Positions 4,338 through 32,093 of a DNA stretch of 35,082 nt are shown here, piece after piece; position 1 is the first letter of the stretch; each line of letters starts with the position of its first letter. Source of the DNA: Verrucomicrobiaceae bacterium (GTDB lineage Bacteria; Verrucomicrobiota; Verrucomicrobiia; Verrucomicrobiales; V1-33); NCBI GenBank assembly GCA_027486335.1, contig JAIXPK010000363.1, positions 1 to 35,082 on the forward strand. Reading direction: 5' to 3'. The notes beneath the pieces were generated by a model, which saw nothing but the letters and a program-made list of their open reading frames with translations, was not told the DNA's origin and made no database searches. A program made the position numbers and the translations under genes.

Positions 4338-4354
4338 TTTTCAGCAGGCACACT

Positions 4355-13300: not shown

Positions 13301-16300
13301 GAGTGGAACGGGTTAGGGCAGATGGTGCCGGTGGCGGTACCGGTTACGGGCACGTATACGGTGGCGATCTCGATCTGGTACGGGCATGAGGGCGAGTACC
13401 GGTTCCGTGTGAGTACGGTGAAGCCTCCTTTGCAGCTCGAGACTGAGCCGAATGGTACGGTGGGTGCGGCGAGTGGGTTGAGCCTGGCGACGAGTGGGGA
13501 TTCGCGGTTTGGCAGTGTGGCGGGCACGATACAGTCGGCGGGAGAGTTGGATTATTTCAATCTGGGGTCGATTGCGGCTGGGCAGACGATTTATCTGACG
13601 GCGCGGCGTCCGGGGCTGAGCCCGATCACACCGGTAGTGAGTGTCTACACGGCTGCGAATGCGTACATGCCGGAGTCGGGTGGCGGGCGGCCATTTGATG
13701 GCGTGGCGGAGGTGAGGATCACGACGGCGGGGACGTATTATGCGGCGGTTCGGAACGGGAACCCGTCGAGTACATCGCTGGATCAGTATGTGCTGGATGT
13801 TCAGGTGGTGCCGACCGGGTCGCTGGATTTCCCTAACTTGATTGTGTCCGAGATTGTGCCCCCGAGTGGTGGGGGGATTCTGAGTGGCCAGACGATTCAG
13901 CTGGCATTTACGGTTAGGAATGGCGGGGCGCTGGCGACACCGGTGCCGGCGTGGTTTGACCGCGTGGCGCTTTCGAAGAACAACGTGCTGGGGGATGGGG
14001 ATGACATTCCTGTGGGGACGATTGCGCGGAATGGTGCGCTTGATCCCGGGGGAGCGTATGCTGTGAACCGGACGTTCCAATTGCCTGACGGATTGAGCGG
14101 GGACTATTTTGTGATTGTGGAGACTGACTCCGGCAATGCGGTGAATGAGTTTGTGCTGGAGGCGGACAACATTGCGGTGTCGGAGACCACATTCCCAGTG
14201 ACTCTGGCTCCCTATCCGGATTTGAGGATTGAGGGCATGGCGGCTTCGGGTCCGAATGCAGCGGGGTTGATCGGATTGTCGTGGAACTCGGCGAATCGCG
14301 GGAACCGTGCGGCGGCGGCGTGGAAACAGCGGATGACGGTGACCCGCGCTGGGGTGGCTGGGGTGGTGTCTGAAGTGGAGAGTGACGTGACCGGGCCGCT
14401 GAATGCGGGGAACGTGCTGGGGCACAGTGATTCGTTCATGCCTGTGGCGGCTGGGCGTTACACGTTCTCGGTTCTAGCGGATTCGAGGAATGAGGTTTTT
14501 GAGCATGACGGGACGAGCAATGCGAGTGCCGAGAGCAACAACACGGCTACCGTGTCGGTGGATGCGACGCGGGATCTAACGGTGCCGTTGATTGAGGTGA
14601 CCCCTGATACGGGGGTGCAGTCGGGCACGCGGCTGACGATCCGGTGGACTGACCGGAACAACGGTAATCTTCCACTGGGCACGCCGTTTTACGATCGTGT
14701 GACGGTAAGGAACCTGACGACTGGCGAGAACCTGCTGGTGGAGGACCGGTATTATGATCCTGCGACGGCAGGGAACGGGGTGATTGGGGCGGGTGAGACC
14801 CGGGTGCGTGAGACGGGGGTGAATCTGCCGGATGGTCTTCGCGGGGTAGGCGTGATGCAGGTGGAGGTGGTTACCGATTTCCACGGGCAGGTTGCGGAGT
14901 ATCTGGCGGCTGGAGGGGCGGAGGGGAATAACGTGGCGCAGTTGAGCGTGACGTCGGCGATTGCGCCCTATCCTGATCTTCAGGTTACGGGACTGGCGCT
15001 GGCGCCGGCGACGGTTTCGCCTGGGACGGTGGTGACGGTTTCGTGGATTGACCGGAACGAGGGGAATGCGCCGGTGCAGAGGAGTTGGTATGACCGGGTG
15101 ACGGCCGTGAACACGACGACGGGCAGCACGATCTCGGATCAGGTGGTGCACTATGATATTGCGGCTCCGGGCAATGGTGAACTGGCGGCGTCGTCGGGGA
15201 GGTCGCGATCTGCGCAGTTTACGGTGCCTAACGGGGCGGCCGGACTTGGTCAGATCCGGGTGACGGTGACGGCTGATACGTACAATGGGGTGTTTGAGTT
15301 CAATGCGGGAGGAACTGGGGAGACGAACAACGGAGCGGAGCGGACCGTGGCGAGCGCCAACGTTGATTTCACGGGGCCGGTGGTCAGCAATACGCAGTAC
15401 AATGGAGCGGGGATTGCAGATGGAAGTGTGCTGACGGGTTCTGGGCGCATCAGTGCTTCGGTGGCTGATCCGGCGGGGATTGGCCGTGTTGAGTTTTATC
15501 TGCGGCCGCAGGGAGGGGTTGATGTGCTGCTGGGGACGGATAGCAACGGGAGTGATGGGTATTCGGCCGTATGGAACGCGGAGTCGGCAGCCAACGGGAC
15601 CTATGTGTTCACCATTCGGGCGTTTGATACCTTCAGCAATGAGACGGTGCTGACGCGGACGGTGTCGCTCGTGCTGGCACCGCCGCCTGCGCCGGTGATT
15701 ACGGCACCGGTGAGTGGATTCGAGACGAATCAGAGCCTGCTGACGGTACGGGGAACGGCGTTGCCGTCCACGCAGGTGGTGGTGCGGCTGAACGGGGTGG
15801 ATGCTGGTGCGGGGGTGACGGTTGGGGCGGACGGGGCGTGGCAGATTCCGGTGACGCTGGTGAATGGAGCGAACCAGATCACGGCGCGTGCGAGCAATGC
15901 GGCGGGAGCGGGTGCGGCGTCGAATACGGTGACGGCGACGCTGGATCTAACGGTGCCGAGTCCTCCGGGATCGGTGGCTGCGGTTTCGCGGGAAGACGGC
16001 AGGATCCGGGTGACGTGGAGTGCATCGGGCGGGCCGGGGATTGCGGGGTATCATCTTTACCGGTCGGCGGCACCGTTCAGTGATCCGGCTGGGCCGGGTG
16101 TGGTGCGGGTGACTTCCGTGCTGCTGGCGGCGCAGCAGTTTGACGATACGCCGGCGACGGACGGCACGTGGCACTACCGACTGACGGCGACGAGTGTGGC
16201 GGGGAATGTCAGTGTGCTATCGGAATCGGTGTCAGCGGTGAGCGACCGCCTGCCGCCGTCGCTTGGGGCGGTGGTGTTCACGCCGAGGAATGCGGCGCAC

Positions 16301-19300
16301 CTGATCGGCGGCCGGTTCGGCACGGGGATTGTGGATGTTGATGTGCGGGTGAGTGAGCCTCTCAATGGCGTGCCGTTCTTCAGTCTGGTGCCTGCGAGTG
16401 GAGGGTTTCCTCTGCCGGTGACGCTGCGTGAGGGTGCGGATCCGCTGCAGTACGGCGGGAGCTTTACGATTACCGAGGACACGGCGGCGGGCAGCTATCA
16501 GGTTTCGTACTCGATGCGGGATGCTAACAGCAACCGGGGTGCGGGGACGTCGCCGACGGCGGGGTTGGTGATTGATACGAGAGGGCCGGCGGTGGACGGA
16601 TTGACGCTGAGTGCGACGGCGCCGATTTTGAATGATTCAGCCAGTCCGGCGAGCCTTGAGGTGACGCTGCATCTGGACGAAGTGTCGGCTGGGGTGCCTG
16701 AGGTGCAGTGGAGCCTGACGAGACTGCCGGCGAATCTGACGGGGACGCTGGTGGATCTGGTGGCGGGAGTTGATGCGAGGACATGGGTTGGTGTGATCAC
16801 GCTGCCGGCTGGTGCGGGTGCACCGGAACCGGAAGACTTGAGATTTTCGTTCCGTGCGTCTGACGACCTTGGAAATGAAGGTCGCGAGATCAAGGTGACC
16901 TCATCGTTCGAGGTGTATCAGGGGACGCTGCCGGCGCTGGATGCGCCATCCGGGTTCTCGGCGGTGGCGAGAGCTGGCGGGATTATCGACCTTGGATGGA
17001 GCCGGAGGAATGGAGCGTCCGGGTACCAGATTTACCGGTCTGCGGTGAATGGTGGAGCTGGGGTGCTGTTGCCGCTGACGGTGATCAGTGACCCGGCGGT
17101 TTTGTCCTTCAGCGACGCACCGGGTGAGGACGGGGAGTATCATTATGCGATCGCGGCGCTGCGGACTGCGAACGGGGTGACGGTGGCGGGGACGGCGTCT
17201 GCGCCGCCAGTGCATGCGACGGCCGACGACGTGCCGCCTGCTGCTCCGCACGACATGGGCCTGACACTTGCGAGCAACGGGATCCTTTCGCAATGGGTGG
17301 CGGGCATTCCGGCTGAGGCGGGCGTGCGCTATCGTGTTTATCGTGCGACTGCGCCGATTGGTTCGTCGGTGGGATTGACTCCGCTAACGACGACCCTGAC
17401 GGCGACGCGTTATCTGGATCCGAGTCCGGTTCCGGCGCTGCGGTATTATGCGGTGGCTGCGGTGGATGCGGCGGGCAACGAATCTGCGCTTTCGAACAGT
17501 GCCTATCTGAATGCGACACTGTGGGCGGTGAGTTCGATTACGGTGGAGAGACCGGAGAGCGGGCCGCTGGCGCTGTCGTGGACGAATGCGTCGCCGGATA
17601 TCAGGGGTTACAAGTTGTTCCTCGGCCCGGCGCTCGGGGGGACACTGATGTCGCCGACGCTGCTGCCATCGCCGGCGTTTGTGGATCACGGGTATGCTTC
17701 TGGTGACCGGAGGTACAGCATTGTGACGGTAGACAGTGCGGATGCGGAGAGCCCATCGCGGTCGATTGTGCTGCCGGGGATTGAGTATGCGCTGGTGCCG
17801 GATCAGACGGTGCGGCGCGGGCTTGTCAGTCGGCTGCGGGTGAGTGTGCGGAATCTATCGGAGACGGAGACCCTGTCGAATGCGCTGGCGAAGATCACGC
17901 TGGCTGGGCAGGTGCATCAGTCGGAGGCATTCAGCCTGGCTCCGCTGGAGACCCGAGAAGTCGGGGTGGTGGTGGGCGGGTATGCGAGCCTGACGGATGC
18001 GACGGCGCCGGTGGCGTTGCGGATTGAATCGCGACCTGAGGAAGGCGCGCTGCTGCGTTATCTGGCAAGCGGGACGGTGGCGGTGGCGGATGGGGGATTG
18101 TCTGCGGAGGTGATTCCCGGGAAGTTCACGCGTGGTGGGAATGGGAGTTTCCAGTTCAGGGTGCGCAACACGTCGAGTGAGACGGTGGAAGTGGTGTCTG
18201 CGAAGAGCAGCGGCGGGGCGGATTCGCCGGATTTGAGGGTGAGGCTGATTGATCCGAACGGGAACGTGCTTTCTGGCAGGCAGTTGCGGATCAATGTCGG
18301 GCCGAGTGTGGTGACGGTGGCGGATGGCACGAGTGTGCTGCGGATGGCGCCGGGCGGGGAGTTTCTGTCTGACGCGATTGAAATTCCGGTTCCGGAGACT
18401 GGAGCGGCGCAGCTGACGGTGCAGGTTGAAGTGGACCGGGCTTACTATCGGTATGGACGTCCGGAGCAGGTGACGTCGCCGGGAACGAGTGCCCGGGAGA
18501 CGGCGTCGCTGACGGAGGTTGGTTATGACGGGGTGATTGCGGGTGCGTTGCCTGCGGTATCGAATGGAGACCAGCCGGTGGTGATTACGGGGAGAGCGGT
18601 GGCGAGTCCTGGCGGGACGGTGCCGGTTCCGAATGTGGCGCTGCGGCTGGGGATTTCTTCTGGTGGGTTTGAGCGGGTGAATCAGGTGACGACGGATGAC
18701 GCGGGGAATTTCAGTTTCCGGTTTCAGCCACTGGCGACGGAATCCGGGCGTTACAGCGTCTGGGTTTCGCATCCTGACTTGCTGCTCAAGACGCCGCAGG
18801 CAACGTTTGTGATCAGCCGGGTGACGATGGAGCCTGGTTCTGCGTCGATCCGGGTGCCGCGGAATTACACGCAGCGGATTGTTCCAGTGGTGCGAGCCGG
18901 GGAAGGAACGACGGCGACGAATCTGCGGCTTGAGGCTGACGGGGTGGTGCCAGCGGGGATCAGTCTATCACTTGATGCGCGGGCATCGCTAGGGGGCGGC
19001 GAAAGCACGTCGCTGCCGTTCACGTTCATTGGGGACAGCACGGCGGCGGCGACGGGCAGTTTCCGGCTGCGGTTGGTGAGTGATGAGAATGCGGGTGGCT
19101 GGGCGACGCTGGCGGTGGAGTATGCGCTGACGGCGGCGACGGCGGCGGCGACGTTTACGCCGAATGTGATCGACACTGGGGTGAATCCGGGTGGAGCGGA
19201 ATCGGAGACCTTCCGGATCCGGAGTGTCGGGTTGGTGCCGCTGAAGAACGTGCAGCTGGCGTTGGTGAGGATTGATGGAGCGGCGGAATTGCCGCCGCCG

Positions 19301-22300
19301 GCGTGGGCGAATCTGGCGGTGGCTCCGCTGACGGCGGAGATTCCGGTGGGTGACGAGTTGCCGGTGACGCTGAATGTGCAGCCGCCGGGTGACACTGCGC
19401 CGGGCGATTACTTCTTTGATATCCGGTTCAAGGCGGCGAATTACAGTGATGTGAGCATCCCGGTGCGGGTGGTGATTACGGCGTCGGGCACTGGCAATGC
19501 GATATTCAAGGTAGTTGATCTGCTGACACTGACGCCGAATCCGCGGTATGTCGCGCCGGGGAATGCGCAGCATCCTGATCCGCTGTATCAGGGGGTACTG
19601 GGTGCGACGATTCAGCTGCAGAGCGAGGATGTGCCGAGTTTTGTGAGGAGTGTGACGACGGACGGGTATGGTGAGGCCGACTTCCGGGTGGGTGGCGAGC
19701 CAGCGCTGCCGGCGGGACGGTACAAGTACCGGGTGACGGCGGACGGGCACGACAGCCGGACGGGACGGTTGCTGATCCGGCCGGGGGTGACGCTGAGCGA
19801 GACGGTGCTGATTCCGAACCGGTTTGTGACGATTGAGTGGGACGTGGTGCCGATCACGATTGAGGACCGGTATGAGATTCTGCTGGAGGCGACGTTTGAG
19901 ACGAATGTGCCTGCGCCTGTGGTCACGGTGAATCCACCGATTCTGAATCTGCCGGCGATGTGTGCGGGGAGTGTGTTCTACGGTGAGTTTGCGTTTACGA
20001 ACCACGGGCTGATCCGGGCGAACAGTTTCACGTTTGTTCCGCCGGTGAGCGATGAGTACAACCAGTTCGAGCTGCTGGACACGATCCCGACGAGCATTGA
20101 TGCGAGGACGACGATTGTGGTGCCGTACAAAGTGACTAGCAAGAAGTCCTTCCCGGGGATTGTGTGCGGGCCGGAGGCTGGAGGGGATGATGGTCGTTCG
20201 GTGCGTGTTGAGAAGGCGGCGCGCAATGGTTCGTCAGGGGATTGCATCCGGTACACGGCGTGTTTCAATTACACGTACAAGCACCGGTGCCCGTGGGGTG
20301 ATGAAGTGACGAGCAGTGGGACGGTCTGCGCGAACTATGCGTATGGGAACTGCGGTGGGCCGAGTGGGCCGGGGAGTGCGTCAGGCGGGTACTACTATTT
20401 CGGGCCGGGCGGCGGTAGTGGTCCCGGCGGGACCGGACAGGGATGGGGGAACTGGGGTGGGTCGATCAAGGGGAGTTCCGATGGGTGTTTCCCTGATTTC
20501 TTTGACTGCAAGAACCGGAATCCGATCGGGTGCTGGGTGAACTATGTGACGAGGCAGTTTGAGGATGAGGCGCTTGATCTTGAGACGCTGGTTCCGGGGA
20601 GTGGCAATGTGGTGAATCGGGTGCGGCGGTTTTACCGGGACAACCGGTGGAATTTCGAGCATGTTGATGCGGCGCTGGTGATCCGAACGGATGGGAGCGG
20701 GCCGTCGGAGCTGAAGCATCTGGGCAGCACGTTTTCGCCGGTGGACTCGACGAGGCTGGAGTTCAGCAACGGGCGCGACCGGATTCGCCGGGTGTCGGCG
20801 GGCTGGAAGCTGAATGCTGCGAACGGCAACTGGCGGGAGTTCAATGAGAATGGCCGGCTGGAGAAGTCGGGCCGGGATGCGGCTACGCTGCTGGTTTACC
20901 TGTATGACGCGGATGGCAATGTCAGCGGGCTCGGGGCTGCGGATGGGACATCGTTCCTGACATTCACCTGGAGTGGCGGTCACCTGACTGGGGTGACGGA
21001 CGTGCATGGGAGGACGGTGGGCTATGAATACAGTGGGAACCTGCTGTCGACGGTGACTGACAGTGAAGGGGCGGTGACGCGGTATTTCTATGATGGGAGT
21101 GGCCGGATGGACCGCTATGTTGATGCGACGGGGCTGACGCACCGGCTGGCATATGACGGTGCGGGGCATGCGCTGTCATTGCTGGACGAGGAGGGGAATG
21201 GCCGACTGTTCAGTTATGATTATGACAAACTGCGGCGCGAGTATTATCTTGGGGAACAGTTCACGAGTGGATTCCTGCGTGAGCGCTGGTATGACAGTGA
21301 CGGGAACATCCGGCTGGCCAAGTTGAACGGGCAGCTGGTGCGGGAGGTGACGCTGGTCGACCGGACGGAGACGCTGCTTTACGGTGACGGGTCCCAGGTG
21401 GTGCAGGAGTATGATGAGAATGGAGCGATCCGGCGGGTGAGCATGCCGGACGGGTCGGTGCAGGCGTATGAGTATGATCCAGTGACGCGACTGCTGAGCA
21501 AGGCGGTGGATCCGGCGGGAGTGATCACGCTTTATCAGCGGGATGCGGCGGGCAATCTGCTGCAGCTGACGGAAGCGGCTGGGTTGCCGGAACAGCGGGT
21601 GACGGTGTTTGCGTACAATAGCGCGGGCAAGCTGGCGACCGAGAGGATGACGACGGGAGACGGGATGGGGACAACGGAGCGGAGTTACACGTATGATGCG
21701 GACGGCCGGATTGCGACGAGGACCGACGAGGTTGGGAAGGTGACCCGGTATGAGGATCACGATGCGAACGGGTATGCGACGAGGGTGGTGGATCCTGACA
21801 ACCGCGCGCTGCAGTATGTCTATGATGCGAGTGGGCGGATGAAGAGCCGGCAGGACGCGCTGGGGAACCGGTGGCAGTTCGAGCATGATGCGTTCAACAA
21901 TGTGACGGCGACGATTGATGCGGCTGGTGGGCGATCGGAGACTTACTACAACATCGAGAATCTGCCGTCGCGGAGCATGGATGTGTTCGGTACCGAGACG
22001 CGTCGGATCAAGTACGGGCCGGACGGGCGTGTGACTGAGGAGCGGGATGCGGCGGGGCGGGTGACGGTGAACAGTTACGACGATTTCGGGCGGCTTTGGA
22101 AGGTCACGAATCCATCGGGTGAGGTGATCGAGTACCGATACAAGGACACGGATCCAGAAGGGGCGCGTCCGGCGGAGATTGTGTATCCGACGTTCACGAG
22201 AAAGCTGGATTATGAGTACGCGACCCGGAAGGTGACGACGACCGACTGGGTGGGCGGGACGAAGCTGCGGACAACGATTCACGAGATTGACACCAGGGGG

Positions 22301-24307
22301 AACGTGGTTGCGATCACGGATAATGAAGGACGCAGTCAGACCTTCGGTTACGATGCGCTTGGGCGGATGACGCGTGCTGAGAGTGCGGGAGGGCTTGTCG
22401 AGGTGTTCGGGTACAACCGGTTTGACCGGCTGACGACGTACACCTCGCCGGACGGCAAAGTCTGGGAGTATGGGTACAGCAATGACGGGTTGAGGGTGAG
22501 CGAGACCTCGCCGGAAGGCCGGGTGCGGCGGTTTGAGTATACGGATGCGGGCAAGCTGGAGCGGACGATTGAGGCGAACGGGGACGTGGAAGAGATCGGG
22601 TATGACGCGGGTGGGCGTGCGACGAGCTATGAGTATGCAGCGGGCGCGACGCCTGCGGTGGTGCAGAAGGCGGTGACGTTCAGCTATGATGCCGATGGGC
22701 GGATTTCGGGTTATACGATGCCTGGGTCGAGTGCGGTGTATGGGTACGATGCGAAGGGGCGGAAGACGTCGGAGGCGGTGAACTATGGAGCGTTCACGAA
22801 GACGCAGGGCTGGACGTTCAATGCGGACGACAGTGTGGCGACGCATACGAATGCGGCGGGGACGGTGATTGGGTACCGGTATGATGCGGGCGGGAGATTG
22901 GAGTCGATTGAACTGCCTGGAGTGGGGCAGATCACGTACGGGTCGAGGTATGGCGGGCGGGTTGGTGCGATTACGCTGCCTGGAGGGGTGACGCAGACGT
23001 TCAGTTATGATCCGCTGCTGAGGCCGACTGGGATGACGATGCGCAAGGCGGATGGGACGGCGGTGTATGCGTGGACGGAGGCGTTTGATGGACTGAATCA
23101 GGTCCAGGAGCGGGTGATGGACGGCGTGACGGAGAGCTTCGGGTTTGATGCGTCGGGACGACTGACGATGGCGGGCGGGACGGCGTTCACGTATGACGAG
23201 CGAGGGAACCGGACGTCGCGGACGGGAGTGCCTGGGTTGTGGGTGTACAATGACGATGACGAGCTGGAGACGGCTGGCGGAGCGGCCTTCGGGTATGATG
23301 CCCGGGGGAACCGGACGAGCCGCACTGGAGGCGGAGGAAATCATGGGTACACATATGATGCGCAGGGATTGCTGACGTCGGTGGTGACTCCGGCGGGGAC
23401 GGTGAGTTATCGATATGATCCGTTCGGGCGGCGGCTTGCGAAGACTGTGGGTGGGGTGACGACGTATTTCAGTCCGAGCGACGACGGGATTGAGGCTGAG
23501 TTTGACGCGGCTGGGAATGAGGTGGCGAGTTACGGGTATGATCCGGCTTCGGAGTACGGGCAGCGGGCGCTGTGGAAGAAGGTGGGGCCTGTGTATTACT
23601 GGTACGGGTTCGACAAGCTAGGCACACCGTGTGTGATGGTGGACAGTGACGGGCTGGTGGTATGGAAGGCGAGTTACGATGCGTTCGGGGCGGCCACGGT
23701 GACGGTGGCGACGGTGGAGAATCATCTGCGGCTGCCGGGTCAGTATTTTGATGCGGAGACGGGACTGCATTACAACTGGCGCCGGTACTATGATCCTGCG
23801 ACGGGGCGGTTCCTGAGTCGGGATCCGGTGCGGGATGAGTACAATCACTTCCTGTATGCGCAGAACAATCCGCTCACGAAATTCGACCCGGACGGATTGC
23901 GTGCGAAGGTTAGTGTGCCGATTCCTCCGGGTGGGGGCATTTGCAAGGTTTACACGTCGCTCGATTTCTGCGAGTGCGGGGTGAAGTGCGGTGGTTCGCT
24001 GGGTTCCAGTAAGGCCAAGGGTGCGGGTTGCGAGCTGGCGGCGGACGCGGATCTCTGCAATGGGCGGAACGGGAATGGTCCGGGAGGGTTCCCGGCACCG
24101 AAGGTGTGTGTGGCGGCTGGCTGCAAGGTCGGGGACGGAACGTGCAAGGTGGAGCTGCTGAAGGCGTGTTATGACTTCAGTAAGAAGAAGGGGGGGGCAT
24201 CCGGGCCGGCGGTTGGCTGCAAGGCGAAGGGGCCCGGGAAGAGTGAAGGCGAGTTCAAGACGCCACCGATCATCAGGACCGGTGAACGTGATGGCTGGGG
24301 TTACTGA
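4355..24307 (+). CDS. Giant exported RHS-repeat protein with three FG-GAP beta-propellers (6650 aa)
   Basis: ATG 4355 gives a signal peptide (MKAKFPTIQLLSALLAGHGLAA); an in-frame ATG at 4325 overlaps the previous gene and is less likely. Approximate domains by residue: lectin-like jelly roll 23-190; five units of an Ig-like domain with LPAEG plus two pre-peptidase-C-like domains (196-3154), the middle three also holding a 7-bladed FG-GAP propeller; four CARDB-like domains (3156-3669); Ig-like and FN3 domains (3671-4476); further Ig-like and carboxypeptidase-regulatory-like folds (to about 5190); Cys-rich collar (5201-5397); RHS/YD shell (5399-6449); RHS core (6457-6515) ending NPLTKFDPDGL; unique tip (6516-6650). 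RHS shells enclose a C-terminal cargo that is autoproteolytically released after DPxGL in known toxins. The propellers carry DxNxDGxxD calcium loops. The protein is most likely cell-surface or extracellular, for adhesion, contact delivery or degradation; which of these is not shown. No secretion apparatus is visible in the window. Confidence 0.93.
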   Translation: MKAKFPTIQLLSALLAGHGLAATVPYSQDFEGVIGSEWSLSTVNNTHVAAFTKFSGRFTNQAQTLTLSGLTVGTSYTVSLDLYVIDSWDGNGGSGPDYFKVVVDGTARFRETFSNFNGNPPSQPQTFVGAPDVGRTHLGFSGSFVDAIYRRIEVPFTATAATATIAFQGENLQDVNDESWGVDNVVVQTSASLAATAIETVTLPAEGGTTSDPIDRFSMTASRGLNSATANAAASYDLRRSGVDGVFGNGDDVVVPLVPAYAGGKTVSFVVTDNPLQPGTYRFRTIGLLDGAGLPVTDFVRVFSVADPAVGRLENIDNNTLEQATALPMTETPSGSGFLTALGAGTFNTTADVDYWRFDAEAGDRVTVRLEADALGVYPQLYLQNGAGANLVTAGGDYNGTVQIQNYVVTSPGSLLLRVFSNNAIARYQMRVDQARGLLLEVEGNDSVGAANVLPLAGTLRIAGALPTGDSEGDYFRLGTLNAGNAIDLNVSLPAGGVLVPGDLTLNLYADSNATPIATAAGGLLSHTLAADGVIYARVRSGAVRGLRAQYVMGLAISDGVPPRVTGTSLPAEAGSTTDLIDRFTVSFSEEMRAATVNDPANFELRSAGPDGVFDNGDDAVYGFVSGGYTSGLSAAYRITNGPLQTGSYRFRAATALLDRVGNGMAAPFERNFAVAGLAGFPGENRSNGNQALATTMSLTPGTNPDGTFSASSSYASGGNNSYHLVSGRLDGDAFDDLVVANYGSSTISVLLGRGDGSFAAPVTYPTAANPHSVVLGDLNGDGNLDVFYSNYGAGSVGVRLGTGDGTLGAAVNYAVGSNPHRVVLADFNADGRLDAAVTNYGSNTVSVFPGNGDGTLGARVNVAVAGGPLGIAAGDVNADGRIDLVTANYNSHNLSVMLGDGAGGFGVPTVTSGVSGSNPYALVLSDFNGDGVLDAATSHLSTANVGWFRGIGDGTFAAAVAVPTGFGGNYHLTAGDLNGDGRPDLVVANYNNSRVIVLGSNVDGSIAAPLVYSIGGNPIAVALGDYNKDGRVDIATANHSNATVTVLLGNSVQPLVEDPVGSGLTSGTGRGRLQLADGTWDEDYWSFSGTAGHVLTFASETPGNPGSSGLRYDLYRPDGAFLTRFYADSNGRGQSSPVTLPISGRYTIGVFVNHGYEGEYRIRVSAASPPWQWEDEGNDSVGGADPLVISAGAPGHQIASVGGYIANNDTAGDYYRLGTQGVGTTIALTLTKPSTSPLVPTLQLFNAAGTVVASGTTSLSHTIGAGGAGVYFARVSGTPASSGLMSVYLLEMDAADIIAPLVTGCTLPAEGTTSTALTDKFSLSFSEDLVTGPVNSMANYELRFAGADGVFDNGDDFLHTLIGDGYSGGLSAGYRITSGPLQPGSYRFTVATELRDRAENRLEVPFVRLFSVANIPGYVFEGLANGSLAGATGLSLSPGSAADGSFAVRSSGAIGAQAYQIVGGLFNADAFPDLVITNYGSGNVSVLLGNGNATFAAAVNYPTGANPFGVAVGDLNGDGRLDLVTANGGNNNLSVRLGNGDGTFGANAVFPVGSSPRRVVLGDFNGDSRLDAAVANEGSANASILAGNGDGTFAAHTTVAVGGSPVGIASGDVNGDGRLDLVVANYGSDTISVLAGNGAGGFAPQAVFPCHASCDPYAVVLRDFDGDGRLDAATSNLSAATVSLLRGNGDGTFGAPAAVPTGFAGNYHLQAGDLDGDGITDLAVANYSNSRLIVVTGRGDGSFEAPAAYSLSGNPIAAEIGDFNQDGRADIATANHGNSTYAILTGNGVQPLAEDPVGSGFRFGTARGNLSLAAGVWDEDYWGFSGNAGDVVTFASETPGNPGSSGLRYDLYRPDGTFLTRFYADGNGRGQSGPVTLPLSGRYTIGVFVNHGYEGEYRFRVTTAPPPWQWETEGNDSTGAANGLAMTAGAAGTQVAKVGGYIANYDTAGDFYRLGTQGAGTTITLGLTKPDSSPLVPTVQIVNAAGTAVATGATGAEFEIPAGADGVYYARVSGAAGSIGLMSVYGLEIVAEDGVAPAITACTLPAEGTVSTVIQDRFSLTFSEDLVAAPVNTMANFELRHAGVDGAFGNADDVLYALSSDGYGGGLGVSFRVTNGPLQPGAFRYTVAPVLVDRAGNVLAAPFIRNFSVANIPGYVFENLNNGSPAVATSLSLAPGAAFDGSFSSTAQVGVGANPYNLASGDLNGDGRLDVVTANYGGGSISVLMGNGNAAFAPAVNYAAGSNPFGIGLGDLNGDGRLDVVVANSSSHNLVVRLGNGDGTFGASTAFAVGTTPRRVVLADFNGDTRLDVAVANESTDNISVLLGNGNGTFATQTPFASGDAPVGIDAADLNGDGRPDIVAASYGSDNLSVYLNNGSGGFSAQAVFASTANSDPYSVVVRDFNGDGRPDAVTSNLSTANVSYLPGTGPGTFGAAVTVGTGFSGNYHVGAVDFDGDAQLDLAVSNYSNSRFIVLSGNGNGTFGSPSVYSIAGNPIASAPGDFNGDGRMDLATCQYGNSTVTLFLGNGVLPLAEDPVGSGMASGTGRGNLPLIAGTWDEDYWSFSGTAGDIINFASETPGSPGSSGLRYDLYRPDGSYLTRFYADSNGRGQSDPVRLPVSGRYSIGVFVNHGYEGEYRFRVTTAKPPVQWETEANNSIASANVLALSAGDPGHQVATVGGHLAINDTSGDYFRLGNQGAGTVLSLSLTQPVSSPLVPTLQLYNSAGVLVASGASELTHTVAAGGDDAYFARVNGAVGSLGLMSVYQLAIDAADIIAPQILGSTLPAEGTTGTGLVDRFALSFSEEMVAAPVVNVSNFELRHAGVDGEFDNADDTVYALSSDGYSGGLSASYRVTAAPLQPGSYRFTAATALVDRAGNPMASEYVQRFAIATTVGYVMENRDNNTRATATGMVLEEDPAGHRSAGARGFLPNLPVTGWDVDYWKFDALAGDLLTLVAGNVGNPGSSGRRFDVYRPDGTLLQGFYTEWNGLGQMVPVAVPVTGTYTVAISIWYGHEGEYRFRVSTVKPPLQLETEPNGTVGAASGLSLATSGDSRFGSVAGTIQSAGELDYFNLGSIAAGQTIYLTARRPGLSPITPVVSVYTAANAYMPESGGGRPFDGVAEVRITTAGTYYAAVRNGNPSSTSLDQYVLDVQVVPTGSLDFPNLIVSEIVPPSGGGILSGQTIQLAFTVRNGGALATPVPAWFDRVALSKNNVLGDGDDIPVGTIARNGALDPGGAYAVNRTFQLPDGLSGDYFVIVETDSGNAVNEFVLEADNIAVSETTFPVTLAPYPDLRIEGMAASGPNAAGLIGLSWNSANRGNRAAAAWKQRMTVTRAGVAGVVSEVESDVTGPLNAGNVLGHSDSFMPVAAGRYTFSVLADSRNEVFEHDGTSNASAESNNTATVSVDATRDLTVPLIEVTPDTGVQSGTRLTIRWTDRNNGNLPLGTPFYDRVTVRNLTTGENLLVEDRYYDPATAGNGVIGAGETRVRETGVNLPDGLRGVGVMQVEVVTDFHGQVAEYLAAGGAEGNNVAQLSVTSAIAPYPDLQVTGLALAPATVSPGTVVTVSWIDRNEGNAPVQRSWYDRVTAVNTTTGSTISDQVVHYDIAAPGNGELAASSGRSRSAQFTVPNGAAGLGQIRVTVTADTYNGVFEFNAGGTGETNNGAERTVASANVDFTGPVVSNTQYNGAGIADGSVLTGSGRISASVADPAGIGRVEFYLRPQGGVDVLLGTDSNGSDGYSAVWNAESAANGTYVFTIRAFDTFSNETVLTRTVSLVLAPPPAPVITAPVSGFETNQSLLTVRGTALPSTQVVVRLNGVDAGAGVTVGADGAWQIPVTLVNGANQITARASNAAGAGAASNTVTATLDLTVPSPPGSVAAVSREDGRIRVTWSASGGPGIAGYHLYRSAAPFSDPAGPGVVRVTSVLLAAQQFDDTPATDGTWHYRLTATSVAGNVSVLSESVSAVSDRLPPSLGAVVFTPRNAAHLIGGRFGTGIVDVDVRVSEPLNGVPFFSLVPASGGFPLPVTLREGADPLQYGGSFTITEDTAAGSYQVSYSMRDANSNRGAGTSPTAGLVIDTRGPAVDGLTLSATAPILNDSASPASLEVTLHLDEVSAGVPEVQWSLTRLPANLTGTLVDLVAGVDARTWVGVITLPAGAGAPEPEDLRFSFRASDDLGNEGREIKVTSSFEVYQGTLPALDAPSGFSAVARAGGIIDLGWSRRNGASGYQIYRSAVNGGAGVLLPLTVISDPAVLSFSDAPGEDGEYHYAIAALRTANGVTVAGTASAPPVHATADDVPPAAPHDMGLTLASNGILSQWVAGIPAEAGVRYRVYRATAPIGSSVGLTPLTTTLTATRYLDPSPVPALRYYAVAAVDAAGNESALSNSAYLNATLWAVSSITVERPESGPLALSWTNASPDIRGYKLFLGPALGGTLMSPTLLPSPAFVDHGYASGDRRYSIVTVDSADAESPSRSIVLPGIEYALVPDQTVRRGLVSRLRVSVRNLSETETLSNALAKITLAGQVHQSEAFSLAPLETREVGVVVGGYASLTDATAPVALRIESRPEEGALLRYLASGTVAVADGGLSAEVIPGKFTRGGNGSFQFRVRNTSSETVEVVSAKSSGGADSPDLRVRLIDPNGNVLSGRQLRINVGPSVVTVADGTSVLRMAPGGEFLSDAIEIPVPETGAAQLTVQVEVDRAYYRYGRPEQVTSPGTSARETASLTEVGYDGVIAGALPAVSNGDQPVVITGRAVASPGGTVPVPNVALRLGISSGGFERVNQVTTDDAGNFSFRFQPLATESGRYSVWVSHPDLLLKTPQATFVISRVTMEPGSASIRVPRNYTQRIVPVVRAGEGTTATNLRLEADGVVPAGISLSLDARASLGGGESTSLPFTFIGDSTAAATGSFRLRLVSDENAGGWATLAVEYALTAATAAATFTPNVIDTGVNPGGAESETFRIRSVGLVPLKNVQLALVRIDGAAELPPPAWANLAVAPLTAEIPVGDELPVTLNVQPPGDTAPGDYFFDIRFKAANYSDVSIPVRVVITASGTGNAIFKVVDLLTLTPNPRYVAPGNAQHPDPLYQGVLGATIQLQSEDVPSFVRSVTTDGYGEADFRVGGEPALPAGRYKYRVTADGHDSRTGRLLIRPGVTLSETVLIPNRFVTIEWDVVPITIEDRYEILLEATFETNVPAPVVTVNPPILNLPAMCAGSVFYGEFAFTNHGLIRANSFTFVPPVSDEYNQFELLDTIPTSIDARTTIVVPYKVTSKKSFPGIVCGPEAGGDDGRSVRVEKAARNGSSGDCIRYTACFNYTYKHRCPWGDEVTSSGTVCANYAYGNCGGPSGPGSASGGYYYFGPGGGSGPGGTGQGWGNWGGSIKGSSDGCFPDFFDCKNRNPIGCWVNYVTRQFEDEALDLETLVPGSGNVVNRVRRFYRDNRWNFEHVDAALVIRTDGSGPSELKHLGSTFSPVDSTRLEFSNGRDRIRRVSAGWKLNAANGNWREFNENGRLEKSGRDAATLLVYLYDADGNVSGLGAADGTSFLTFTWSGGHLTGVTDVHGRTVGYEYSGNLLSTVTDSEGAVTRYFYDGSGRMDRYVDATGLTHRLAYDGAGHALSLLDEEGNGRLFSYDYDKLRREYYLGEQFTSGFLRERWYDSDGNIRLAKLNGQLVREVTLVDRTETLLYGDGSQVVQEYDENGAIRRVSMPDGSVQAYEYDPVTRLLSKAVDPAGVITLYQRDAAGNLLQLTEAAGLPEQRVTVFAYNSAGKLATERMTTGDGMGTTERSYTYDADGRIATRTDEVGKVTRYEDHDANGYATRVVDPDNRALQYVYDASGRMKSRQDALGNRWQFEHDAFNNVTATIDAAGGRSETYYNIENLPSRSMDVFGTETRRIKYGPDGRVTEERDAAGRVTVNSYDDFGRLWKVTNPSGEVIEYRYKDTDPEGARPAEIVYPTFTRKLDYEYATRKVTTTDWVGGTKLRTTIHEIDTRGNVVAITDNEGRSQTFGYDALGRMTRAESAGGLVEVFGYNRFDRLTTYTSPDGKVWEYGYSNDGLRVSETSPEGRVRRFEYTDAGKLERTIEANGDVEEIGYDAGGRATSYEYAAGATPAVVQKAVTFSYDADGRISGYTMPGSSAVYGYDAKGRKTSEAVNYGAFTKTQGWTFNADDSVATHTNAAGTVIGYRYDAGGRLESIELPGVGQITYGSRYGGRVGAITLPGGVTQTFSYDPLLRPTGMTMRKADGTAVYAWTEAFDGLNQVQERVMDGVTESFGFDASGRLTMAGGTAFTYDERGNRTSRTGVPGLWVYNDDDELETAGGAAFGYDARGNRTSRTGGGGNHGYTYDAQGLLTSVVTPAGTVSYRYDPFGRRLAKTVGGVTTYFSPSDDGIEAEFDAAGNEVASYGYDPASEYGQRALWKKVGPVYYWYGFDKLGTPCVMVDSDGLVVWKASYDAFGAATVTVATVENHLRLPGQYFDAETGLHYNWRRYYDPATGRFLSRDPVRDEYNHFLYAQNNPLTKFDPDGLRAKVSVPIPPGGGICKVYTSLDFCECGVKCGGSLGSSKAKGAGCELAADADLCNGRNGNGPGGFPAPKVCVAAGCKVGDGTCKVELLKACYDFSKKKGGASGPAVGCKAKGPGKSEGEFKTPPIIRTGERDGWGY
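4421..4925 (+). other. N-terminal lectin-like jelly-roll domain of the giant protein
   Basis: This covers residues about 23-190 of the giant protein. It begins YSQDFEG and continues with LDLYVIDSWDGNGG...GPDYFKVVVDG and ends ENLQDVNDESWGVDNVVV. That pattern is typical of concanavalin- or carbohydrate-binding-like beta sandwiches at the front of verrucomicrobial and myxobacterial surface proteins. Sugar binding is a family-level guess. Confidence 0.6.
6521..7510 (+). repeat. FG-GAP beta-propeller 1 (seven blades)
   Basis: Seven consecutive ~49-residue FG-GAP/VCBS repeats follow the pattern GDLNGDGxxDxxxANYxSxxxSVLLGxGDGTF. Each blade carries an Asp-rich calcium loop. Seven copies match one closed seven-bladed integrin-alpha-like propeller. 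Blades 5 to 7 have individual signatures (HLSTANVG; NYHLTAGDLNGDG; GNPIAVALGDYNKDG). Confidence 0.88.
8732..9721 (+). repeat. FG-GAP beta-propeller 2 (seven blades)
   Basis: This block has the same length (990 nt) and blade order as propeller 1. Blade 4 ends in PCHASCDPYA, a Cys pair missing from the equivalent positions of propellers 1 and 3 (SGVSGSNPYA and ASTANSDPYS). The pair could form a local disulfide. Confidence 0.88.
10943..11932 (+). repeat. FG-GAP beta-propeller 3 (seven blades)
   Basis: This is the third 990-nt block of seven FG-GAP blades, starting exactly 2211 nt (737 codons) after propeller 2, which itself starts 2211 nt after propeller 1. The calcium loops are well kept (DLNGDGRLD, DFNGDTRLD, DFNGDGRMD). 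Blade 7 has a single Cys (LATCQYGNS). Confidence 0.88.
13820..15360 (+). repeat. Four tandem CARDB-like domains
   Basis: Four copies of about 125 residues begin at about 13825, 14215, 14575 and 14965. They show the CARDB pattern: PDL at the start (FPNLIVSEI, YPDLRIEGM, YPDLQVTGL), then SG--V-LSW--RN-GN in the first half and a V-V-TD--N-V-E strand followed by NN at the end. CARDB domains are cell-adhesion-related bacterial Ig-like folds. Confidence 0.75.
15955..17780 (+). other. Fibronectin type III and Ig-like stalk region
   Basis: FN3-like domains are recognisable from PPGSVAAVSREDGRIRVTWS...GYHLYRSA, PSGFSAVARAGGIIDLGWS...GYQIYRSA and APHDMGLTLASNGILSQW...YRVYRAT, with a weaker fourth (SSITVERPESGPLALSWTNA...GYKLFLG). 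Two Ig-like modules sit between the first and second FN3 (about 16255-16910). The region probably acts as an extended spacer. Confidence 0.7.
19955..20545 (+). other. Cysteine-rich collar before the RHS shell
   Basis: Ten cysteines occur within about 195 residues (MCAG, VCGPE, DCIRYTACF, HRCPWG, VCANYAYGNCGG, GCFPDFFDCK, IGCW). Between them is a Gly/Tyr/Ser-rich low-complexity stretch (GYYYFGPGGGSGPGG). It lies immediately before CWVNYVTRQF...VRRFYRDN, which resembles the DUF6531-like start of RHS proteins. No known domain is recognised in the collar itself. Confidence 0.65.
20550..23899 (+). repeat. RHS/YD-repeat shell and RHS-associated core domain
   Basis: There are more than twenty YD repeats, such as YEYSGNLLSTVTDSEG, YFYDGSGRMDRYVDATG and FGYDALGRMTRAES. 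They are closed by the core block PGQYFDAETGLHYNWRRYYD, then GRFLSRDP, NNPLTKFDPDGL (ending at 23899). Known RHS proteins wrap these repeats into a hollow cocoon around the C-terminal cargo and cut after the DPxGL motif. Only one Cys is seen in the whole shell (GTPCVMV). Confidence 0.92.
23900..24304 (+). other. 135-aa cysteine-rich RHS tip of unknown function
   Basis: This is everything after the DPDGL cut motif. It holds eleven cysteines, many lysines and glycines, and pairs such as FCECG, VKCGG, VCVAAGC and GTCKVELLKAC. No nuclease, deaminase, ADP-ribosyltransferase or peptidase motif is recognisable. Such tips are toxins in classic polymorphic systems, but the next gene here is an exported Ig-type protein rather than a small immunity gene. 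A disulfide-knotted binding or structural domain is equally possible. An eight-G run lies at 24190-24197. Confidence 0.7.
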
Positions 24308-27435: not shown

Positions 27436-28134
27436 ATGAGACTGGCATTGAGTTCATTGTTAGTGATTCCGGTGGTCCTTGCGGCCGGGGCGGGGTCACT
27501 GGAGGCGGCGAGCATCTCGCTGAATATCTCGAGCGGGTTCCTGTATGGATCCGGTGGGATTACGGTGGCGGACCGGTTGCCGGTGTCGACGCTGTGTGTG
27601 CTGGTGGCTGATCTGGACGGGAACGGATTTGATCCGGTACCGGCTGGTGCGTGGGTTGGTGGGGGGGATGTGCTGGTGGCGATTACCGATCTGGAGTATG
27701 ATGCATCGGCTGGGGGGACGAGGGCGTTTGATCTGACGTCGGGGAGTTCGGGGACGGCGGGATTTTTCTCGAGGACGCTGAATGTGGATCTGGGGCAGTT
27801 TGGCGGCCGGGTGGAACCTGTGGCGGTGGCGTTGCGGTGGTTTCCGGCGATTCTGGCAGGCGTCGACCTGAATGTGGTGACACCGGTGCAGGGGATGGCG
27901 TACGGGGAGTTCAGTCGTGCAGTGCCGGTCTATTCCGGCACTAACGAATGGCTGGTGCCGATGACGGGCGGGGCGATTTTTGATCTGGATCCGCTGGCGA
28001 CGTCTGGGTTTGGGGGGATTGATGGGGATGTGTCGGCGATGGCGACGCTGGCGGTGATACCGGAGCCGGGGGTGGCGAGTCTTGCGGCGATGGGCTTGCT
28101 GGCGGTGTGGCGGAGGAGAGTCCGGTGTGACTGA
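27436..28134 (+). CDS. PEP-CTERM sorted protein, paralogue of 1078-1941
   Basis: The product is 232 aa, starting 5 nt after the previous stop. The signal peptide is MRLALSSLLVIPVVLAAGAG...AAS. The body is homologous to the protein at 1078-1941 across its length (NISSGFLYGSGG, DRLPVSTLCVLVADLDGNGFDP, FSRTLNVDLGQFGGR, VALRWFP, FGGIDGD). It ends IPEPGVASLAAMGLLAVWRRRVR: a PEP motif, a hydrophobic segment and a basic tail, the signal recognised by exosortase for processing and surface attachment. Exosortase genes are normally elsewhere in the genome and are absent here. It is the last gene of the co-directional cluster. The shared body is of unknown function. Confidence 0.88.
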   Translation: MRLALSSLLVIPVVLAAGAGSLEAASISLNISSGFLYGSGGITVADRLPVSTLCVLVADLDGNGFDPVPAGAWVGGGDVLVAITDLEYDASAGGTRAFDLTSGSSGTAGFFSRTLNVDLGQFGGRVEPVAVALRWFPAILAGVDLNVVTPVQGMAYGEFSRAVPVYSGTNEWLVPMTGGAIFDLDPLATSGFGGIDGDVSAMATLAVIPEPGVASLAAMGLLAVWRRRVRCD

Positions 28135-28976: not shown

Positions 28977-31900
28977 TCAGGCTTCGGGGGTGGCCTGGGG
29001 TTTGGGGGCGGCCTTGATCTGGCGGCGGAGTTTATCGACTTCGGCATTGAGGGTGTCGCGTTCTGCGTCGGTGGCGGCGGAGTCTTTGGTGAGGGCGGCC
29101 TTTTCCTGTTCGAGGGTGGCGATGGATTCTCTTGCTGTGGCGATTTCTTTGCCGGTGGTGCGGTTGAACGTACTGAATTCTTCAGTGAGGTCGGTGACGG
29201 TGCTTAGGAGGGCGGTTTCGCGCGAGGAGAGTTCCTGTTTGGCGGACGCGAGGGCTTTTTCCAGGGTGGCGAGGGCGGTGGCCTTTTCCTTGGCGAGGGT
29301 GGAGGCTCTGGAGGCGGAGGCCTCGGCGGTGGCGAGGAGTTTCTTGAGTTCTGCGGTGGCGATGGTGGCGTCGGCCTGTCGGGCGGTGAGTTCGGATTCC
29401 TTGTCGGCGAGTTTGCGTTCGAGGGCGGCGAGGCTGGTGGTGGCGAGGGCGGCGTTGGTGCTGGCTTCTTTGGCGGCGAGGTCGGCAATGCCGATGGAGG
29501 CTTCGGCGTTGCGTCTGGCGGTGTCAGCGGACGAGTACATGACGCCGGCGACGGCGGCGATGGTGAGGCCGGCGACGGCTGGGAGCGCCTTGATGGGGCG
29601 GGAGACCTGTTGTGGCTGCTGATGAGCGGGCTGGGAGAAGGCGCTGGGCGCGGGGTTGCGCGTTTCGATGGTTTCGATGCGATCTGGTTTGGTCCAGAGA
29701 GTGAACTGGTGGTCAGGGAGGTTGAATCGCGGGGTGGCGGGTGCGGCGGCGAGGGCCGGGGCCGGGGCAGAGGATTTGGTGACCGGGGCGGTGGGGGAGT
29801 CTGGGGATGGGAGCCAGGGGGAGAAGCCGCGGTTGGCGGCGATGGAGATGGGAGGGGCTGTGGCCGGAGTTGGCGCGGGAGGTGCGGGCTGGGGCCATGT
29901 GGATGGATTGAGCCAGAGGGTGAAGCTGTTGCCTGGGAGTTTGAGGCGAGGGCGCGGCCACTTATCGGGGTCGAGCCAGAGCGTGAAGCCATTGGCGGGG
30001 AGACTGAGTTTCGGGATGGGCCATGTGGCTGGATTGAGCCAGACCGTGAAGCCGTTGGCGGGGAGTTTGAGGCGAGGGTGCGGCCACTTGTCGGGGTCGA
30101 GCCAAAGAGAGAAGCCGTTAGCGGGGAGTCTGAGTTTTGGGATGGGCCATGTGGCAGGGTTGAGCCAGAGCGTGAAGCCATTGGCTGGGAGGACGAGAGG
30201 CGGGGCGGGCCCTGTGGCTGGGGAGATGTCGACCGTTTCCGGCGGCGAGGGGAGCGGGAGGGCGCTGGGGTCGGCGGAGGGGGAATCGGGCGGAGAGGAG
30301 AGCTCGTTGGCCTTGTAGGTTTTCCATGCGCGGAAGGATGACCAGAGGGCGGCGAGGGCCATGGTTATGGCTGCGGCTGGGATGCCGTATTTCCGGAAGC
30401 GCATTTCGATGACGGATTTGCTGGCGGGGACGGGTTCCTTGAGGGATTTGGCGAGGAATTCGGTTTCCTGCTGGGTGAGTGACATGTCGCGGAGGCCGAC
30501 GGCGGCCTTGCGGGCTTCTTCGCGGCGGTTATTGGCGGCGAGGCAGGAGACGAGGACGAGCCTCTGGGAGGGCTGAAGGTTGACGGAGTAGATGCTTGGT
30601 TTGTAGCTGGTGAGGTGGACGAGGGCCTGGGGAGCGAGGCCCTTGAGGAGGAGGGCCATGGCGAGGGTGGCACGCGGGGCGATGGCGTCGGGGAAGCGGG
30701 AGCAGCGCTGGGCGATTTCCTCGCGGTCTTCCGGGATATTGAGGAGGAGGTTGAGGTAGGAGAGTTCGCTTTTGATATTGATGTCGCCGGACAGGGCTGG
30801 GGCGGCGGCGGCCATTTCGTAGTACTGGCGGAGGCGGACGGCGTCTTTGCGGGCGCGAGCGGCGGGGATTAGTTTGCGGAAGACGATGCCTGCGGCTGCG
30901 GGGTCGGCGAGAGCTTTGGTGAGGCCTTTGAGGGTGAAGGGGTCATCACCGGCGAGGCAGATGAAGGCGAGAGCTTCGGCGTATTCGCCGGGGCGGCCTT
31001 CGAGGTCAGCGAGGATGCTGCCGTATTCGCCGCGGGCGTCGGTCAGGCCTGAGCGGTAGAGGACGCGGGTGCGGAAGAGTTTTCTGAGGGTGGGCGACAT
31101 GGGGATGTCGCTTTTGGAGAGGGCGTCGAGGGCGACATCGAACTGTTCGGTTCGTTCCATGACTTCGAGCCAGAGGGAGAAGAGATCGCGGTTTGTGAGG
31201 GCGTCGTCGCGGGAGATGAGTTGGGGAACGGCGGCGTGTTCACCGATGGAAGTGAACCAGCGGGCGGCGGCGGCGCGGTCTTCGAGGGGAGCTTTACGGA
31301 GGCGGCCGGCGGTGCGTTCGACGACGATGCCCTTGCCGCGAGGTCGAGCGGAGGCCTCGTAGCTGTCTGCTTTGAGGAGGTCTGAGGGATTGGCGGCGGG
31401 GTGGGTACGGATGACCTCGAGCCATGAGTAGAGTTCTTTGGTTGGGATGACGGCTTTGCTGAGAGCGAGTTCGATGGCATCGAGGCCGTATCGTTCTGGG
31501 CGAGGGGGAACGGCCTTGAGGAGTTCGAGGATTTCTTCGGAGACCTCTGAGAGCGGTCTGTAGCGGATGAGGAAGGTGGCGAGAGCGGCGTGACCGCGGC
31601 CGGCGACGTCATTGGCGGCGATGCTGCGGAATTCCTTTTCTGCGGCGAGGAGGTCGTTTTTGGAGACGAGGTCGAGAGCGTCGCGGATGCGGACGATGAC
31701 GGCTTCTTCGTCTGGCGGGGCGGAGATGGAAGGTGCGGGCGGGTCGGAATCCGGCTGAGGGATGGGGGGGACCGGCTCGTCAGCGGCTTCTGCGGCGGCG
31801 GCTTCGATGGCGGCGAGGAGTTGTTTGGCGTCTGAGTTTTTCGGGTCGAGGTTACGGGCGACGATGAGCATCTGGCGGGCGTCATCGGGCTGGCCTTTGT

Positions 31901-32093
31901 CGATGTAGCGTTTGGCGGTGTCTGTGAGGCGGCGGCTTTCGCCTTTGGTGGACGAGAGGTGGTAGATCCAGCTGCTGCCAGCGGCGACGGCGAGGACGAT
32001 GGCGAGGGTGATGCGCCGGGCTGTGGCGCCGATTGACTGGATGGTTTTGCTGTCGTGTGGGGCGAGGTCTGGGAGGTGGTGGTTGTCGTTCAT
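28977..32093 (-). CDS. Large membrane protein with TPR-like helices, 21-aa Trp/Pro repeats and a coiled coil
   Basis: The product is 1038 aa. A membrane segment at about residues 28-46 is followed by a TPR-like motif (AKRYIDKGQPDDARQMLIVARNLDP) and a long Ala-rich helical domain to about 560. A second membrane segment lies at about 567-588, then a Pro-rich linker. Five 21-residue repeats (635-739) read LPANGFTLWLNPATWP and variants, with two degenerate copies after them. A third membrane segment (about 835-854) is followed by a long coiled coil (about 858-1030) rich in Ala, Lys, Glu and Thr. With three membrane passes, the repeat and coiled-coil regions would lie on opposite sides. It is transcribed against all its neighbours. 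No known family is recognised; a structural or scaffold role is only a guess. Confidence 0.85.
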   Translation of the reverse strand: MNDNHHLPDLAPHDSKTIQSIGATARRITLAIVLAVAAGSSWIYHLSSTKGESRRLTDTAKRYIDKGQPDDARQMLIVARNLDPKNSDAKQLLAAIEAAAAEAADEPVPPIPQPDSDPPAPSISAPPDEEAVIVRIRDALDLVSKNDLLAAEKEFRSIAANDVAGRGHAALATFLIRYRPLSEVSEEILELLKAVPPRPERYGLDAIELALSKAVIPTKELYSWLEVIRTHPAANPSDLLKADSYEASARPRGKGIVVERTAGRLRKAPLEDRAAAARWFTSIGEHAAVPQLISRDDALTNRDLFSLWLEVMERTEQFDVALDALSKSDIPMSPTLRKLFRTRVLYRSGLTDARGEYGSILADLEGRPGEYAEALAFICLAGDDPFTLKGLTKALADPAAAGIVFRKLIPAARARKDAVRLRQYYEMAAAAPALSGDINIKSELSYLNLLLNIPEDREEIAQRCSRFPDAIAPRATLAMALLLKGLAPQALVHLTSYKPSIYSVNLQPSQRLVLVSCLAANNRREEARKAAVGLRDMSLTQQETEFLAKSLKEPVPASKSVIEMRFRKYGIPAAAITMALAALWSSFRAWKTYKANELSSPPDSPSADPSALPLPSPPETVDISPATGPAPPLVLPANGFTLWLNPATWPIPKLRLPANGFSLWLDPDKWPHPRLKLPANGFTVWLNPATWPIPKLSLPANGFTLWLDPDKWPRPRLKLPGNSFTLWLNPSTWPQPAPPAPTPATAPPISIAANRGFSPWLPSPDSPTAPVTKSSAPAPALAAAPATPRFNLPDHQFTLWTKPDRIETIETRNPAPSAFSQPAHQQPQQVSRPIKALPAVAGLTIAAVAGVMYSSADTARRNAEASIGIADLAAKEASTNAALATTSLAALERKLADKESELTARQADATIATAELKKLLATAEASASRASTLAKEKATALATLEKALASAKQELSSRETALLSTVTDLTEEFSTFNRTTGKEIATARESIATLEQEKAALTKDSAATDAERDTLNAEVDKLRRQIKAAPKPQATPEA
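29877..30191 (-). repeat. Five 63-nt (21-aa) tandem repeats, LPANGFxLWL type
   Basis: Five units start at 30191, 30128, 30065, 30002 and 29939, reading down the minus strand. Units 1 and 3 read LPANGFTLWLNPATWPIPKL or close to it. Units 2 and 4 read LPANGFSLWLDPDKWPHPRL or close to it. A 42-aa dimer therefore seems to have been duplicated. Unit 5 (LPGNSFTLWLNPSTWP) is drifting, and two remnants follow (NRGFSPWLPSPDS; LPDHQFTLWTKPD). Confidence 0.92.

Follow-up and report, generated by a model that had tools for sequence, protein, structure and literature searches.

The window, a stretch of 35,082 nucleotides from a Verrucomicrobiaceae bacterium, encodes on one of its predicted membrane proteins a tandem array of short aromatic peptide units, for which there is perhaps an even chance that it is a strip of docking motifs, cytoplasmic, disordered and multivalent, displayed on a single-span membrane scaffold. 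This reading is favoured because the units share a conserved aromatic core, appear disordered, are irregularly spaced in relatives, have multiplied by duplication, and recur on other proteins. The repeat, the purifying selection acting on it, the architecture of its carriers, the gene fusion in the window and the restriction of the motif to one lineage are established by the comparisons described below.

The array and the fused gene that carries it

The array (29877-30191, minus strand) covers residues 635-739 of a 1038-residue open reading frame (28977-32093, minus strand) and consists of five in-frame units of 21 residues in the order A-B-A-B-C, the coordinates, frame and repeat pattern being exactly those given in a preliminary description of this DNA. 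Tandem Repeats Finder, applied to the array DNA, scored a period of 126 (474) above one of 63 (277), and nucleotide identity is highest between units 1 and 3 (86%) and between units 2 and 4 (87%), as against 62-78% for the remaining pairs. It follows that the preliminary description was right to propose duplication of a 42-residue A-B dimer; a paralogue described below has A-B-C only. The five full units stand, but two degenerate copies had been missed: AANRGFSPWLPSPDSP at residues 752-767 (29793-29840, minus strand), where paralogues retain L before W, and a last copy, LPDHQFTLWTKPDRIE, at residues 792-807 (29673-29720, minus strand), which is matched by a held-out profile with an i-E of 4.2e-6 and has a counterpart in most relatives (alignment A3). 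The 21-residue repeat is likewise real, but it is a locally amplified form, and relatives conserve only a nine-residue core.

The array does lie between membrane segments, as had been proposed. On one side is a hydrophobic helix at residues about 570-587 (TM helix 2; 30333-30386, minus strand), modelled as a helix at 573-599; on the other is TM helix 3 at residues 834-852 (29538-29594, minus strand), supported by sequence, alignment and AlphaFold2. The latter leads into a long single helix or coiled coil at residues about 855-1027 (29013-29531, minus strand), predicted by AlphaFold2 mostly with pLDDT >90, for which Pfam and NCBIfam gave only weak generic coiled-coil matches. The N-terminal half begins with TM helix 1 at residues about 28-45 (31959-32012, minus strand), which was called from sequence and falls within a long modelled helix (15-65). 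It continues as a predicted helical-repeat, TPR-like region at residues about 55-555 (30429-31931, minus strand), modelled as helix pairs with pLDDT 50-86. A Pfam TPR_19 match there stays below the cut-off (16.7 bits against 25), and the best Foldseek matches are TPR and related helical-repeat proteins, at E 3.9e-5 but with TM-scores of 0.18 or less. Elsewhere in the window, inspection by eye picked out a 6660-residue open reading frame (4325-24307, plus strand) in which VLGDLNGDGRLD-type (FG-GAP/VCBS-like) segments recur and the C-terminal region has YD/RHS-like repeats, and a putative secreted protein (27436-28134, plus strand) with a PEP-CTERM-like tail, VIPEPGVASLAAMGLLAVWRRR.

Elsewhere in the genome to which the window belongs, a search recovered a second strong array (G000:C224:6322-6588), 72% identical, in a 406-residue protein composed of units A-B-C, two degenerate copies, a TM helix and a coiled coil, and encoded directly downstream of dxs (DXP synthase; Pfam, 354 bits). 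The N-terminus of this paralogue aligns with the part of the window protein that starts near residue 600, and its residues 9-24 match PDSPSADPSALPLPSP at the presumed joint (residues about 597-600; 30294-30305, minus strand). Residues 1-597 of the window protein match stand-alone TPR-like paralogues in the same genus at 28-35% identity (G000:C327, two at G000:C567, and others in G001 and G003); these share the N-terminal TM helix and stop just past the counterpart of TM helix 2. Since the N-terminal half thus has lone homologues and the rest an unfused one, the window gene is, on these alignments, evidently a fusion of a TPR-like paralogue with a complete repeat-TM-coiled-coil protein. The orthologue G001:C198, 89% identical to the window protein over residues 1-596, shares this fusion; its contig terminates inside the array, and the remainder of the gene is probably on C81. 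The preliminary description was correct in placing the array between a helical domain and a coiled coil, the helical part being TPR-like; that the array links the two is a real arrangement, but one due to a gene fusion peculiar to a single genus.

Most of the TPR-like paralogues displayed from genus g1 have a hydrophobic helix at either end and terminate in a short basic tail, as called by a crude hydropathy scan that missed some helices. At G000:C567 and G001:C209 such paralogues occur as tandem pairs. Another TPR-like relative (L208, G010:C21) carries in its N-terminal part, ahead of a likely TM segment, four tandem copies of approximately FKKR[VIL]PF[DN][DG][AS]FAPIAPGAPVLVPE, the first slightly different; this bacterial family thus has another motif array, unlike the first in kind.

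The nine-residue core, its selection and its carriers

The core conserved across relatives is LP[GA]xx[FH][ST][LVIM]W. Among 87 distinct units the W is present in all 87, S/T in 86, F/H in 83 (H in place of F in 16), L/V/I/M in 81, P in 72 and L in 69, and 58 fit the strict core; two matches in the TPR region were removed before this count, and the ActC units discussed below fall outside it, the pattern needing seven residues after W. Collected sequences contain 68 matches to the core, whereas 200 shuffles averaged 0.0, a descriptive figure given that the motif was derived from the same sequences. The core is conserved while its spacing varies, successive cores lying 20 to 158 residues apart in different relatives. 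Scaffolds have from one to about six copies, which precede a single membrane helix and a long coiled coil. The repeat units are under purifying selection: dN/dS within the repeat is about 0.13 between the window gene and its paralogue, 0.27 between C224 and G001:C96, and 0.17 between units 1 and 3. The window gene compared with G001:C198 gave dN 0.070 and dS 0.276 over 599 codons. Scaffolds of genera g15 and g31 (family f3) keep the order motifs, TM helix, coiled coil, but their units have lost the W-P half and retain the core alone; in G140 (genus g14) a looser version, PSRAFTLW, occurs twice ahead of both a hydrophobic helix and a coiled coil. A longer type of scaffold, with one or two motif copies, exists in g15 as well, its gene lying next to one for a sodium/solute symporter. 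In three of these long scaffolds (L190, L187, L188) the N-terminal tails contain not only the core motif but also another recurrent peptide, RGFSLP[DH].

The motif is restricted to one uncultured family of Verrucomicrobiales and three genera of a second family. A profile (A1) built from 29 single units matched, at E<=0.001, 19 genomes in a sample of 386 from the order, namely 11 of the 13 members of family f1 together with G029, G097, G100, G129, G140, G149, G183 and G531 (family f3). The G183 match looks like chance, its open reading frame not being gene-like by eye, and the sole match in G531 is an ActC tail. The two f1 genomes in which the motif was not found are G007 and G006, the latter only 77% complete. 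In the phylum sample 2 of 387 genomes matched at E<=0.002, the window's own genome and G444, whose open reading frame is again not gene-like by eye. In the class sample a second profile matched 7 of 384 genomes at E<=0.01, these being G000, G004 and five with weak single matches; the open reading frames in G839 and G903 were not gene-like by eye, and the matches in G153, G462 and G730 yielded nothing in the same scripted check. Because only about 22 candidates per genome were scored in these large samples, weak members may be missed. When 84,980 genomes of named species were scanned with the arrays, 10 loci came up, all of them in metagenome-assembled genomes labelled Verrucomicrobiales, Verrucomicrobiaceae or Akkermansia. 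Short open reading frames of 87-130 residues containing SNAFTGWTKP (G000:C190, G001:C88, G003:C10) were left out of the carriers. The motif is not a proteome-wide tag, strong matches being confined to one to three genes per genome.

An array gene follows dxs in seven genomes (G000, G001, G004, G009, G010, G011 and G012), and in G002 and G005 it lies at another place. Eighteen other regions downstream of dxs, including those of G002, G005 and G007 and leaving out the contig-edge regions L257 and L266, have no array gene; on both counts a link to isoprenoid synthesis was rejected. The neighbours of carrier genes differ (dxs, the Na+/solute symporter and others) and offered no candidate reader or partner.

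The core also occurs on proteins unrelated to the scaffold. ActC is the NrfD-like subunit of alternative complex III (PMC5928083), and in both g31 genomes seen (G097 and G531) it carries one C-terminal copy, ending in LPGNAFTLWIKK and LPGNPFTLWIKKK respectively (consensus LPGN[AP]FTLWIKK); the last part of these tails is otherwise unalignable before the motif. The assignment to NrfD is clear (Pfam, 74.7 bits, the cut-off being 25.8). ActC was matched in 32 of 37 genomes searched, and among the tails read, at 9 of 30 loci, only those of G097 and G531 bear the motif, so that ActC in general appears to be without it. No further ActC was found among the inspected matches of a DNA pattern search (189 genomes) or of profile A1 (386 genomes). 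In G097 the motif is present on both scaffold and ActC. The other case is G008:C689, a soluble-looking protein with two motif copies in a variable C-terminal extension; its conserved part, for which Pfam gave no match, was recovered from 10 of the 13 genomes searched, and the one homologue with a readable tail, in G015, does not have the motif there. When the ActC and G008:C689 rows were excluded before scoring, the held-out profile returned sequence E-values (Z=100000) of 3.1e-3 for ActC of G097, 8.7e-4 for ActC of G531 and 1.4e-5 for G008:C689. These are suggestive rather than overwhelming, because the pattern search screened 189 genomes and its reversed-pattern control gave 6 matches. Every non-scaffold carrier is confined to one genus or one genome. 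A further occurrence, LPDKAFTLW in a cupredoxin of G097 and G531, lies within the cupredoxin-like C-terminal domain and was taken from its sequence as coincidence.

Predicted structure, membrane side and known systems

The array is predicted to be intrinsically disordered: its pLDDT is about 29-42 in two AlphaFold2 models, a low confidence that rests on 10-11 sequences. A model from 10 aligned rows gave pLDDT 29-39 across the array and the TM helix and coiled coil as one helix of 187 residues, mostly with pLDDT >90, and the full-length model has helical repeats in its first half at pLDDT about 45-86. In the latter, DSSP assigned short strands at S/T-L-W in units 2-5 (662-664, 683-685, 704-706 and 725-727), with pLDDT about 40; they are mostly missing from the second model, and are the sole faint trace of the stacked or ligand-binding folded segment suggested in the preliminary description, which is not supported by an array left unfolded and a 21-residue period lost in relatives. 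A folded ligand-binding repeat was rejected on the missing family match, low pLDDT and irregular spacing, and the last two argue in the same way against a beta-solenoid or other closed repeat fold. A short linear motif is the better description of the unit.

The array is tentatively placed on the cytoplasmic side of the membrane on four grounds. No signal peptide is visible before it in the unfused forms, which start near the array; the net charges of the 15-residue flanks of the TM helix, summed over 18 proteins, come to +12 next to the array and -11 next to the coiled coil; in the fused TPR-like protein the helices ahead of the array are even in number; and the termini of ActC are cytoplasmic in a solved ACIII (PMC5928083). 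K+R alone, counted over the same 18 proteins, gives 41 on the coiled-coil side and 25 on the array side, opposite to the positive-inside rule.

Neither Pfam, NCBIfam (array or scaffolds) nor PHROGs (window protein, E<=0.01) gave a match above cut-off, the best Pfam scores on the array being HMG_WDHD1 (20.0 bits against 51.6, over 11 residues) and BiPBP_C (15.8 against 26.8), and 177635 distinct PDB sequences gave 0 matches to profile A2 at E<=1 and 0 to profile A1 at E<=10; the motif, unrecognised when first noticed, thus has no counterpart in these curated collections. A literature search turned up no description of it, which is not proof of absence, and the motif, its carriers and their bacterial membrane setting appear undescribed. 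In the order of its parts the scaffold would resemble TolA-like single-span proteins, in which an N-terminal cytoplasmic part is followed by one TM helix and a long periplasmic helix. It differs in having no TolA domain match above the Pfam cut-off, and TolA is not known to have a motif array.

Disordered regions that bear motif arrays are nevertheless known, and the traits of multivalent short linear motifs are present here: the core is short and conserved, it occurs in several copies at variable spacing and, on AlphaFold2 evidence, its context is disordered. The closest analogue in kind is the set of 8 DPW motifs of epsin, which like the 15 DPF motifs of Eps15 bind the alpha subunit of AP2 (PMC7787433). 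There, too, the protein is membrane-associated and a short aromatic motif recurs at variable spacing along its disordered, proline-rich tail, but epsin and Eps15 are eukaryotic, use another motif with a known reader and share no homology with the present carriers, which are bacterial transmembrane coiled-coil proteins. The tandem repeats of Borg elements (PMC9879509) are likewise in genes under selection, disordered, linear-motif-like and often in membrane proteins; they are near-perfect, recent and absent from non-Borg homologues, whereas the core described here is common to two bacterial families.

Competing explanations and significance

If the docking interpretation is correct, copies of the core would act as docking motifs, exposed to the cytoplasm by an inner-membrane protein that crosses the membrane once and extends its C-terminal coiled coil into the periplasm. 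With several copies, one scaffold could hold several molecules of a putative cytoplasmic reader, or other carriers of the motif, and copy number would tune avidity. In the window gene the scaffold is fused to what would be the cytoplasmic tail of a two-helix, TPR-like protein of the periplasm, and this would tie that protein into the same network. It is tempting to go further and suggest that the motif is a private docking code gathering unrelated membrane complexes around the coiled-coil scaffold, a built-in assembly site to which a putative cytoplasmic reader, or the motif itself, recruits ACIII (through the added ActC tail) and the TPR-like protein (through gene fusion), but this more ambitious proposal is doubtful.

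That the carriers cluster without any separate reader, their aromatic F-[ST]-L-W segments acting as stickers that stack in a beta or condensate-like manner, is a minority possibility. It would account for the in-register S/T-L-W strands of units 2-5 in the full-length model and for the presence of the motif on both scaffold and ActC in G097; the low confidence of those strands and their near-absence from the second model weaken it, as does the irregular spacing, and the invariance of S/T together with the exchange of F only for H looks like recognition by a pocket and not generic stickiness. The aromatic-aliphatic character of the core, and the fact that the majority of carriers are membrane proteins, would also suit an interface anchor, in which these Trp/Phe/Leu/Pro peptides press the disordered tail to the inner leaflet. 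This is improbable: the 16 units with H for F should insert less well, the exact order L-P-G-x-x-F-S/T-L-W exceeds the specificity that an interface peptide needs, and the models do not show the peptides as amphipathic helices.

The sharing of the same short peptide by unrelated genes recalls in-frame mobile or palindromic elements that spread into genes, for which the palindromic elements of Rickettsia are the comparison case. Such an origin is extremely improbable here, with few strong carriers in each genome, codons that differ among carriers, and no non-coding match at E<=0.001 except the chance-like G183 and G444. Lastly, the array might be a proline-rich spacer of variable length, amplified by replication slippage and with no specific binding. 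The number of units varies among relatives, the 42-residue duplication is recent, and tandem repeats commonly yield disordered regions, as reported for Borg elements (PMC9879509); such a low-constraint linker is unlikely all the same, given that the units are under purifying selection, that a different family keeps the core despite other spacing and linkers, and that non-homologous proteins carry the same core.

Tandem arrays of short linear motifs are well studied in eukaryotes. If the docking reading is true, a conserved, lineage-specific bacterial array on a membrane scaffold, its core recurring at the tail of a respiratory subunit and in a natural gene fusion, would provide a testable case of modular docking in the Verrucomicrobiota. 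Should the ActC and G008 cases prove accidental, there would remain an undescribed family of membrane coiled-coil proteins; a reader, if one came to light, could reveal the way in which membrane complexes are organised in these bacteria.
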